From: Luteitalea pratensis
Lineage (GTDB): Bacteria > Acidobacteriota > Vicinamibacteria > Vicinamibacterales > Vicinamibacteraceae
DNA length: 64,000 bases
Reading direction: 5' to 3'
Assembly (NCBI RefSeq): GCF_001618865.1
Contig: NZ_CP015136.1
Span: forward strand, 4,437,001 to 4,501,000
Shown here: positions 34,901-61,202 of the stretch, piece after piece
Numbering within the stretch: the stretch's first letter is position 1
How the letters are laid out: each line of letters opens with the position of its first letter
Notes under the pieces: model-generated
Seen by the model: only the letters and a program-made list of their open reading frames with translations
What the model was told of the DNA's origin: nothing
Databases searched by the model: none
Program-made: the position numbers and the translations under genes

Positions 34901-34907
34901 CGGGAAG

Positions 34908-35065
34908 GTAGGGACCGCTCTCCAAGGTAGGGACCGCTCTCCAAGGTAGGGACCGCCCTCCTAGGTAGGGACCGCTCTCCGAGCGGTCCATCTTCGCCTC
35001 CGGTCAATCTCCGCATCCGTCTGTTCCGGGGCGAGGAGGTGGACGCCTCGGAGAGGCGTCCCTAC
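34908..35065. repeat. REPIN-like element with four tandem heads, locus 4
   Basis: The left side has a 19-bp unit GGTAGGGACCGCTCTCCAA repeated from 34907, 34926, 34945 and 34964, the last completed to a full hairpin GGACCGCTC-TCC-GAGCGGTCC. The right side, on the minus strand, is GTAG then GGACGCCTC-TCC-GAGGCGTCC. Located between convergent pcm and rho; the right foot directly follows the rho TAG stop. Half-element amplification suggests slippage or repeated insertion. Confidence 0.88.
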
Positions 35066-50454: not shown

Positions 50455-52143
50455 ATGACGAGTTCCGCCCAGGTGGCCGGACAGACGTTCGATGCCGTAG
50501 TCGTCGGGCCGGCGCATCCGGCGGCTGGGCCGCGAAGCGCCTGAGCGAGTCCGGCCTGCAGGTCTGCATGCTCGAGGCCGGGCGAGCCCTGACCGATGCC
50601 GACTACAAGGAGCACGTTCCGGCGTCCTCCCTGCCCTATCGCAATCGTGCCGACGAGGTGATCCGCCGGACGCGTCCGAAGCAGAAGGACTGCTACGCCT
50701 GTCGTGAGTGGAACTACGACTGGTTCGCGAACGACATCGACGAGCCGTACACCACGCCTGACGACAAGCCCTTCGCGTGGATGGGCCGGATGCGCGTGGT
50801 CGGCGGTCGCACGAATGTGTGGGGGCGCCAGAGCTACCGTCTCGGTGACATCGACTTCAAGGCGGCGAGCCGGGACGGCCATGGCGTCGACTGGCCGCTG
50901 TCCTACGCCGATCTCGCGCCGTACTACGACATCGTCGACGAATACGTCGGCATCACCGGCATCAACGAAGGCGCCGATGCCGTCGTGCCCGACGGCAGGT
51001 TCCACCCGCCGATGGGAATGTCGTGCATCGAGCACGCGGTTCGCCGGCGGTTGCGGACGCAGTTTGGCCGGACGATGACGCTGGGTCGCTCTGCCAACCT
51101 CACCAGGCCCATCAACGGACGGTCCGCCTGCCACTATTGCGGGCCCTGCGAGCAGGGGTGCGCCACGCACTCGTACTTCAACAGTGCCTTCACGACGGTG
51201 GCCGATGCGCTTCGCACTGGGCGCACGACCCTCGTCACCGGCGCGATGGTCCACCAGGTCATCGTCGATCCGGCGACGGGCAAGGCGCGAGGCGTCAGCT
51301 ACATCGACCGTTCGACGCGCCAGGTACGCGAGGTGTACGCGAGGGTGGTGGTGATGGCCGCGCAGGCCCTCGAGTCCACTCGCATCCTGCTGAACAGCCG
51401 CGAGGGCGGACTTGCCAATGGCAGCGGCGTGCTGGGCAAGTACTTGATGGATCACATCAGCGGCGGCGGCGCATCGGCGGAGTTCCCCGACCTGGCCGGT
51501 ACCGTGATGGGCCCCGACAGCCCACGACGGCCGAACGGGATCTACCTGATGCGCTTCCGCAACCTGCCGGGCCAGCCTGCTGCGAAGGATTTCCTGCGCG
51601 GCTATGGCTACCAGGGCGGCGGCAGCACCGGCCTGCGCGGCAACGCGCCTGGCTTCGGCGCGGCCTACAAGGCGACCGTGCGCGACACCGCCACCACCTT
51701 CAACTTCGGCGGCTTCGGCGAATGCCTGCCGTACGCGGACAATGAGGTCTCGATCGATCGCGACGTGGTGGATACATGGGGAATCCCGGCTGCGCGTGTC
51801 CATGCGGTGGCACGACAACCAACTCGCCCTGCGCCGCGACATGGCCTTGCAGGCCGCAGAGATGCTCGACGCCCTGGGCGGCACGCGCATCCAAATCCGC
51901 CTCAACGAGCAGCAAGCGCCAGGCTATGGTATCCACGAAGTCGGCACGGCCCGCATGGGCCCGGACGCGAAGTCGTCGGTGCTCAATCAGTTCCAGCAGG
52001 CGCACGAGGTGAAGAACCTGTTTGTCACCGACGGCGCCGGCTTCCCGTCGATCGCCTGCCAGAACCCGACCCTGACGATCATGGCGCTGACCGTGCGGTC
52101 GTGCGACTACATACTCGACGAAATGAAAAAGGGGAACCTGTAA
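50455..52143 (+). pseudogene. Second GMC oxidoreductase, disrupted by two compensating frameshifts
   Basis: A close paralogue of the preceding gene (same order of motifs, most residues identical, including the CHYCGPCEQGC cluster). From ATG 50455 the frame reads TSSAQVAGQTFDAVVVG, then loses one base near 50510 inside the FAD motif (GSGASGG is restored in the next frame). It continues to about 51785, where two bases are missing in the WGIP-RLRVSM segment, returning to the original frame and ending at TAA 52143. Net loss is three bases. It is either a young pseudogene or contains two sequencing errors. Confidence 0.8.
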
Positions 52144-52144
52144 G

Positions 52145-52252
52145 GTAGGGACGCCTCTCCGAGGCGTCCACCTCTCTCTCCGTGGCATCCACCACTCTCC
52201 ATCGGCGAGTCCGGCGGCTGCGGAGATGGACCGCTCGGAGAGCGGTCCCTAC
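52145..52252. repeat. REPIN-like paired hairpin, locus 6
   Basis: The left element is GTAG then GGACGCCTC-TCC-GAGGCGTCC, one base after the GMC2 TAA. The right element on the minus strand is GTAG then GGACCGCTC-TCC-GAGCGGTCC; its foot supplies the TAG ending the minus-strand remnant. The middle ~60 bases are unrelated. Confidence 0.88.
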
Positions 52253-52440
52253 CTGATCGATACCTTCTGCGACCCGGCCTGCAACGGGTAACGCTTCCCT
52301 TTCCAGAACAGATCGCCGCTCACGCCGTCCGGCAGTGTCACCGTTGCCTCGAGCGCGTCGCCGGTCCGCTTCAGGACGACGTCCACGAAGCCCGTCGGGT
52401 GCGGCACGCGTCCCGACACTTCAGTCAGGTCGCCGAGGTG
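52249..52440 (-). pseudogene. C-terminal remnant resembling alpha-L-rhamnosidase or a related glycosidase
   Basis: About 60 residues, VSGRVPHPTGFVDVVLKRTG then ATVTLPDGVSGDLFWKGKRY and PLQAGSQKVSIR. The LPxGVxGxxxWxGKxxPLxxGxQ pattern looks like the last beta-strands of bacterial alpha-L-rhamnosidases. Upstream the frame runs into 7-bp repeats, so the rest of the gene is gone. Its TAG stop is the REPIN foot of locus 6. Resemblance judged by eye only. Confidence 0.45.
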
Positions 52441-52454
52441 GGGCCTGCCTTCGC

Positions 52455-52577
52455 GACTGGGACTCGGGATTCGGGACTGGCCTTCGGCCTGGCGCGTATG
52501 CGTCAGGCATGAGGCATGAGGCATCAGTCGTTAAGCGTTAGGCGTTAGGCGTTAATATGCCCCGTGCCCCGTGCCCC
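52455..52577. repeat. Cluster of four different heptamer arrays before nth
   Basis: In order: GGGACTC, GGGATTC, GGGACTG (52464-52486); GGCATGA repeats (52506-52525); GGCGTTA repeats (52531-52556); CCCCGTG twice (52560-52573). The last array contains the GTG used here as the nth start. The 52144-52563 spacer is otherwise filled by REPIN locus 6 and the glycosidase remnant. Confidence 0.85.
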
Positions 52578-53478
52578 TAAAGGCGCGCCGACCCTCGTGC
52601 CGGCCGCGGCCGTGCTGGAGCGTCTGCTCCGCCACTACCCGACGCCGGACACCGAACTCGCCTACCGCAACGCCTTCGAACTGCTGATCGCGACCGTGCT
52701 GTCGGCGCAATCCACCGACCGGCGCGTGAACGAGACGACGCCGGCCCTTTTTGCGCTGTATCCCGATGCGCGCGCGCTGGCCGTCGCGGATCCAGCCGAT
52801 GTCGAGCCGATCATCCACGCCACCGGGTTCTTCCGCGTCAAGTCCAGGGCCATCGTCACGCTCTCGCAGCGGCTCGTCGCGGAGCATGGCGGCGACGTGC
52901 CGGCGACCATGGACACCCTGACGACGTTGCCGGGCGTCGGGAGGAAGACCGCCAACGTCGTGCTCGGCCACGCGCTCGGCGTGCCGGGACTCCCCGTCGA
53001 TCGCCATGTGCTGCGCGTCACCGAACGCATCGGCCTGACCTTCGAGACCACGCCCGAAGGTGTGGAACGCGACCTCTGCGCGGCGCTGCCCGCATCCGAC
53101 TGGACGCGCATGTCCGACGCGCTGATCCTGCACGGCCGGCGCATCTGCCGGCCGCGGCCGCTCTGCGGCGAGTGCTTCGTCGCCGATGTGTGTCGCTACC
53201 CGTTCAAGACCGGAGGGATTGCGCCACTCGACCTCGGTGCGCCACCCACAGGCAGGCCTGCGGGCCGGGCTCGGCCACCTTCGCGCAACGCGCCGGGATC
53301 GCAGCGGTCTGATAAGGCTCCGCGCCCAACGATCGGGAACGCCATCAAGCGAACGACGACGAACCCGCAGGCTGGCTCGTCGCGCCGAAGCGGCAACGCC
53401 GCGAAGGCGGACTCGTCGCGCCGAAGCGGCAACGCCGCGAAGGCGGAAGGCCGACGGACGAAGGCCGTCAAGAAATGA
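52564..53478 (+). CDS. nth: Endonuclease III with repetitive C-terminal tail
   Basis: 304 residues. Bifunctional DNA glycosylase/AP lyase for oxidised pyrimidines. Helix-hairpin-helix LPGVGRKTANVVLGHALG with catalytic Lys, VDRHVLRVTERIGL with catalytic Asp, and the [4Fe-4S] ligand set CRPRPLCGECFVADVC (C-x6-C-x2-C-x5-C). The enzyme core ends near residue 220; the remaining ~85 residues are a basic, low-complexity tail with a 12-residue unit SSRRSGNAAKAD/E present twice in tandem. The GTG lies in a heptamer repeat; the true start may differ. Confidence 0.93.
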   Translation: MPRAPKGAPTLVPAAAVLERLLRHYPTPDTELAYRNAFELLIATVLSAQSTDRRVNETTPALFALYPDARALAVADPADVEPIIHATGFFRVKSRAIVTLSQRLVAEHGGDVPATMDTLTTLPGVGRKTANVVLGHALGVPGLPVDRHVLRVTERIGLTFETTPEGVERDLCAALPASDWTRMSDALILHGRRICRPRPLCGECFVADVCRYPFKTGGIAPLDLGAPPTGRPAGRARPPSRNAPGSQRSDKAPRPTIGNAIKRTTTNPQAGSSRRSGNAAKADSSRRSGNAAKAEGRRTKAVKK

Positions 53479-61042: not shown

Positions 61043-61202
61043 GGACGCCTCTCCGAGGCGTCCATGACCTCTCCGAGGCGTCCATGACCTCTCCGAGGCG
61101 TCCATGACCTCTCCGAGGCGTCCATGACCTCTTTGGGGCGTCCATGACCTTTCCGCGACGTCGCCGGCCAGCCATGGACCGCTCCGAGAAGCGGGTCCCT
61201 AC
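61039..61202. repeat. REPIN-like element with internal 20-bp tandem repeat, locus 7
   Basis: The left element is GTAG then GGACGCCTC-TCC-GAGGCGTCC. The right element on the minus strand is GTAGGGACC with a damaged stem. Between them the unit CTCCGAGGCGTCCATGACCT is repeated four times exactly (61051-61130) and once with changes (61131-61150). Each foot provides the TAG stop of the convergent gene on its side (amidase and membrane protein). Confidence 0.9.

Follow-up and report, generated by a model that had tools for sequence, protein, structure and literature searches.

The window analyzed here, a stretch of 64,000 nucleotides of the Luteitalea pratensis genome, contains the nth gene for endonuclease III, preceded by a mosaic of short tandem arrays and overlapped at its 5′ end by a further 7-bp tract (Table 1). 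The frame annotated as nth scores 224.5 bits against TIGR01083 (cut-off 211.7), and a search of genome contigs for Nth returned three loci, the sole close relative being L039 with 82% identity. At the other end of the gene, the C-terminal tail contains a 36-bp direct repeat (2.2 copies, 53369-53447) that encodes a basic, low-complexity extension.

Table 1. Features of the nth start region, with window positions, strand and supporting evidence
Feature	Positions	Strand	Evidence
Heptamer-array mosaic, intergenic: AGGCATG x 2.9 at 52505-52524; GTTAAGC/GTTAGGC/GTTAATA from 52530	52505-52557	+	TRF
TAATAT, proposed -10 hexamer	52553-52558	+	TANNNT position in 7/7 family members
ATG of the preliminary description; opens MPRAPCP frame; probably no start codon	52557-52559	+	Sequence, frames
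TGCCCCG x 2.9; exact 14-mer TGCCCCGTGCCCCG	52558-52577	+	TRF; 14-mer search of genome
nth, endonuclease III, 304 aa	52564-53478	+	TIGR01083; HhH-GPD PF00730; orthologs
GTG, proposed leaderless nth start codon	52564-52566	+	Distance to FELL; MPR N-terminus of orthologs
GTG, alternative internal in-frame start	52597-52599	+	No TANNNT and no Shine-Dalgarno core within the distances scanned

A preliminary description of this locus read its start as an ATG followed by two CCCCGTG units and CCCCTAA, and the letters bear this out, with the units at 52560-52566 and 52567-52573 and CCCCTAA at 52574-52580. Its frame arithmetic is equally correct: with two units the ATG opens a frame of seven codons, M-P-R-A-P-C-P, closed by the TAA at 52578-52580, and the removal of one unit carries the same ATG into the nth frame as M-P-R-A-P-K-G. 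The description went on to conclude that translation of the present gene has to begin at a GTG within the repeat, and that the tract has the makings of a slipped-strand phase switch with possible mutator consequences. Only one GTG of the repeat (52564) lies in the nth frame, the other (52571) being out of frame; the homology evidence presented below backs the former, but the claim of necessity is slightly too strong, as further in-frame GTG codons follow downstream of the repeat at 52597 and 52612.

We compared the start regions of 36 Nth orthologs of the order Vicinamibacterales, obtained from 40 genomes. Four genomes (G010, G027, G034 and G037) were left out; their best matches, with values of only 1.8e-31 to 2.5e-37, are probably paralogs. 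The family of the window is represented by seven members (G000, the window genome, to G006). A TANNNT hexamer located 5 to 7 nt upstream of an in-frame nth start was present in 13 of the 36 orthologs, and its distribution follows the family boundary, with all seven family members sharing this promoter-start geometry and 6 of the 29 remaining orthologs displaying it. The family start, a GTG or an ATG, falls 35 to 45 codons before a conserved FELL motif (FQLL in L020): 37 codons in the window, L002 and L003, 38 in L005, 45 in L004, and 35 in L020 and L022. The preceding hexamer reads TAATAT in the window, TACCAT in L002, L003 and L004, and TACGAT in L005, L020 and L022. The spacer between TAATAT and GTG 52564 is 5 nt, with those of the other family members lying within 5 to 7 nt, and the M-P-R N-terminus read from this GTG recurs in L004, L005, L020 and L022. 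No Shine-Dalgarno core (AGGA, GGAG or GAGG, 4 to 12 nt upstream) was found at any candidate nth start in the seven family members, the three candidate starts of the window included. On the basis of homology, GTG 52564 is most likely the true start of nth. Translation could instead initiate at the internal GTG 52597, leaving the repeat untranslated, and a matching in-frame GTG does occur 26 codons before FELL in L001, L002 and L004. This codon, however, has neither a TANNNT nor a Shine-Dalgarno core upstream, and no start codon is present at the equivalent position in L003, L005, L020 and L022, making its use as the start very improbable.

The geometry shared by the family suggests a leaderless-type start. 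TAATAT would serve RNA polymerase as the -10 element of nth, and transcription would begin on GTG 52564 or directly beside it, so that this GTG would double as the start codon of a leaderless mRNA. The A and T of the upstream ATG (52557-52558) are the final two bases of the hexamer, and this ATG is probably untranscribed, because it overlaps the site at which all seven family members carry a TANNNT before their start; it would thus be promoter sequence. The upstream array, belonging to a class of intergenic 7-bp repeats that extends across the genome, would reach TAATAT and form part of the -10 element, whereas the two CCCCGTG units would represent a short local duplication, or a coincidence, on a native GTG-CCC-CG (M-P-R) start, with a unit number that is presumably stable. 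We assign a probability of about three in four to this reading as a whole, that is, to a leaderless-type nth start lying beside an ordinary heptamer array and containing no phase-variable tract.

Leaderless genes were reported in all three Acidobacteria genomes surveyed in the relevant section of PMC3160421, where they make up on average 13.3% of genes. Like the TA-led genes described there, in which TANNNT lies some 12 bp upstream of the start codon, nth combines a TANNNT at short distance with the absence of a Shine-Dalgarno sequence; it differs from them in its 5-nt spacer and in having a hexamer that forms the end of a heptamer array. To place this spacer in context, TANNNT distances were surveyed at 1240 candidate starts of 288 open reading frames (ORFs) in the window genome and at 1115 starts in G001; the gene calls behind these and the later array and promoter counts are GC3-based ORFs, not curated genes. 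In the window genome the hexamer peaks at spacers of 6 nt (13 starts) and 7 nt (9), against roughly 3.4 per spacer between 12 and 30 nt, and the corresponding counts in G001 are 14 and 8 against roughly 2.3. Part of the evidence counts against the leaderless reading. The 5-nt spacer seen at nth is not enriched, being found at 1 of 1240 starts in the window genome and at 2 of 1115 in G001, where 6 to 7 nt is the norm, and a scan of 52140-52700 with the sigma-70 consensus (-35 plus -10) yielded no promoter. A terminator scan around nth gave no match.

The consequences of changes in unit number can be enumerated directly. An in-frame nth start is available at every number of CCCCGTG units from one to six, so that nth on a leadered mRNA would not be turned off at any of these numbers; indeed, the product of the ATG with one unit begins MPRAPKG, exactly as does that of the GTG with two. 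A GTG lying 5 nt after TAATAT, in contrast, is in the nth frame solely at two and at five units (zero to six tested). Toggling of nth by unit number would hence arise only if the mRNA is leaderless, in which case two units would be ON and one or three OFF, inverting the switch originally proposed. Such an inverse contingency, in which adding or dropping a unit shuts off nth, would constitute a mild mutational hot spot for nth loss and not a regulated switch. The frame table and the conserved leaderless geometry speak for it, but in-frame GTG codons persist further inside the mRNA and slippage of two short units is rare, and we regard it as unlikely.

The switch as first conceived, with two units OFF or weak and the loss of one unit allowing the ATG to translate Nth, rests on correct arithmetic and on the existence of 7-bp phase-variable tracts such as that of hmw1A (described in part of PMC8262952). 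Against it stand the in-frame GTG that remains at two to six units, the overlap of the ATG with the conserved -10 position, and the lack of a tandem run at the start codon in all six other family members. The tract is also not of the long, slippage-prone type: with 2.9 copies it belongs to the shortest runs, which account for 41 of the 76 exact ones, and the hmw1A strains and constructs covered in the same passages of PMC8262952 carry 13 to 24 heptamer units. We consequently judge phase switching of nth, with its mutator implications, to be unlikely, and this specific form of it to have scant probability; the corrected description places the nth start most likely at GTG 52564, the ATG being partly covered by the proposed promoter hexamer. 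Among the open-licence papers searched, none was found that joins endonuclease III, phase variation, tandem repeats and mutators.

A third arrangement would have nth also read from a longer mRNA beginning upstream, with the frame from the ATG to the TAA at 52580 acting as a leader peptide, MPRAPCP, that overlaps GTG 52564 and couples translation. The seven-codon frame is indeed present and terminates only a short way into nth, but AGGA, GGAG and GAGG are absent both before the ATG (by eye) and before the nth starts, and an ATG overlapping the hexamer occurs in none of the six other family members (by eye). We deem this arrangement extremely improbable.

As for the CCCCGTG tract, a search of the 7.48-Mb genome (a contig of 7,480,314 bases) for its exact 14-mer of two units gave a single match; this exact search detected no TGCCCCG array elsewhere, which also speaks against a phase-variable tract. 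The relatives L005 (GTGCCCCGT) and L004 (GTGCCCCGC) lack a tandem run at their start codons and present the same start letters, both beginning GTGCCCCG as well, which indicates that the unit probably developed out of the native M-P-R start or happens to match it. Exact period-7 runs with at least 12 self-matches were absent from two dinucleotide shuffles of the window and from two of a 400-kb sample, so the nth run, with 13 self-matches, is not attributable to compositional chance, a result that counts against the favored reading.

The arrays upstream of nth, on the other hand, are partly similar to 39 other places in the genome (40 scored out of 253 candidates), of which 20 were inspected in context. 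Period statistics, drawn from genome samples, reveal that the window contains 13 exact period-7 runs, a separate 400-kb sample of the same genome 63 and a 400-kb sample of G001 44; both shuffles of each of these three sets contain none. Across 22 stretches from 20 other relatives, period 7 accounts for 14 runs and no other period between 4 and 13 for more than 3, all 14 being concentrated in 7 of the 22 stretches. Merging of the 7-bp repeats in 464 kb yielded 65 arrays, of which 52 are intergenic, 5 extend across a gene end and 8 lie inside called ORFs, even though 75% of that sample is called coding; the 8 coding cases may correspond to over-called ORFs. In these genome samples, period 7 is therefore over-represented and mainly intergenic, as expected of intergenic heptameric simple sequence repeats (SSRs), and the units vary widely within a single genome (GTTAGGC, GGCATGA, TCGGGAG and CTCAGGT, among others). 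By eye, other heptamer arrays are visible upstream of nth in L003, L026, L006 and L019, the CCGGTTG run of L003 having been confirmed, whereas L020 and L022 display 8-bp units, not heptamers, in this position. In the set of loci L082-L101, several GTTAGGC arrays seem, also by eye, to abut an opposite-strand stop codon (TAACGCC TAACGCC as seen from the end of the gene), and look like filling between that stop codon and the next promoter.

Heptameric intergenic SSRs as such are an already known kind of bacterial repeat. Those of Xanthomonas and Nostoc, for which the authors judged a phase-variation-like function unlikely in the part of PMC4692102 that treats them, resemble the arrays of the window genome in their 7-bp units, their intergenic location and their proximity to genes of mixed function, and differ from them in that the window genome combines many different units; the term Acidobacteria is absent from the main text of that paper. 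The TAACTGA heptamers of Beggiatoaceae, proposed in the pertinent text of PMC4679880 as sites for a post-transcriptional regulator, are likewise found just 5′ of start codons that mostly have no recognizable Shine-Dalgarno sequence, but they consist of one unit type (PMC4679880). The hmw1A gene of Haemophilus influenzae shares with nth a heptamer repeat overlapping the promoter -10 box, with the difference that hmw1A is a phase-variable adhesin gene with 13 to 24 copies and nth a repair gene with about 3 copies per unit type; by analogy with this precedent, as outlined in PMC8262952, an overlap between array and -10 element can be functional. No report of heptamers in Acidobacteria was found among the open-licence matches listed, nor inside PMC4060949 or PMC5900883.

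The genome of L. pratensis shows dense heptamer arrays of many units, some of which appear to enter leaderless-type promoters. It contains the pattern GCGTTA-NNN-T-N5-8-RTG 25 times, whereas two control spacings of equal width give 16 and 12 matches. The reversed pattern, however, returns 36, 37 and 35 matches at the test and the two control spacings, and because these reversed controls exceed the pattern counts, the raw count of 25 alone is no evidence. An array precedes 13 of the 25 GCGTTA-NNN-T sites, and 11 of these 13 open a frame that is rich in GC3 and at least 100 aa long; the twelfth array-linked frame, L134, is 97 aa long and matches DUF167. At the control spacings, 18 of 28 sites were examined, the other 10 being dropped as coinciding with test sites; 7 of the 18 had an array, and 3 of those 7 such a frame, one of which (L162), with a GC1 lower than its GC2, is perhaps no gene. 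There are, accordingly, about ten genes in which an array seems to continue into the -10 element.

Extrapolated to the genus, these cases would imply that the turnover of intergenic heptamers builds promoter ends, with GCGTTAG-type arrays entering the GCGTTA-NNN-T -10 element of a set of leaderless genes that includes nth. We hold this generalization to be doubtful, having lowered its odds in view of the reversed-pattern controls. If true, the gain, loss or replacement of a 7-bp unit would reshape the promoter, the transcription start and even the start codon in one step, and array turnover would bring about changes of regulation in many ordinary genes. The function of the arrays is open to test in L. 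pratensis, a cultured soil bacterium.

Adjacency to arrays was also considered as a general mark of leaderless genes. In the window-genome sample, flanking by arrays is hardly more frequent at starts with TANNNT at 6 to 7 nt (2 of 22) than at control starts (4 of 64), leaving the proposal unsupported there, and it is weakly supported in G001, with 8 of 22 TA-led starts flanked against 7 of 43 controls. Array-flanked genes include three with roles in repair, encoding DinB (L165), a Fapy glycosylase-like protein (L097) and Nth. Among the 10 array-flanked proteins scanned out of 15 listed, the others comprise UxaC, DUF167, histidine phosphatase, aminotransferase, S4 and penicillin-binding proteins, and 2 have no family; with such mixed functions, no enrichment in repair genes is apparent in these 10, as judged without a formal statistic.

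Several further features were noted in the window. A 91-aa open frame on the reverse strand (52249-52524) has no Pfam or NCBIfam match and is probably not a gene. In the GMC oxidoreductase gene at 50568-52148, the N-terminal domain occupies one frame (from 50568) and a C-terminal part of a related family another (51604-52143), and the gene may be frameshifted; relatives were found, including a neighboring paralog in the window genome, with open-frame lengths that are indecisive on this point. Dispersed palindromes with the core CTCGGAGAG and varying self-complementary stems occur at 34905-34980, 52155-52199, 52234 and 61048-61155. They are REP-like, are often followed by CCTACC (by eye) and form tandem copies at 61048; 36 such cores were counted in 464 kb of the window genome, compared with 9 in 400 kb of G001.
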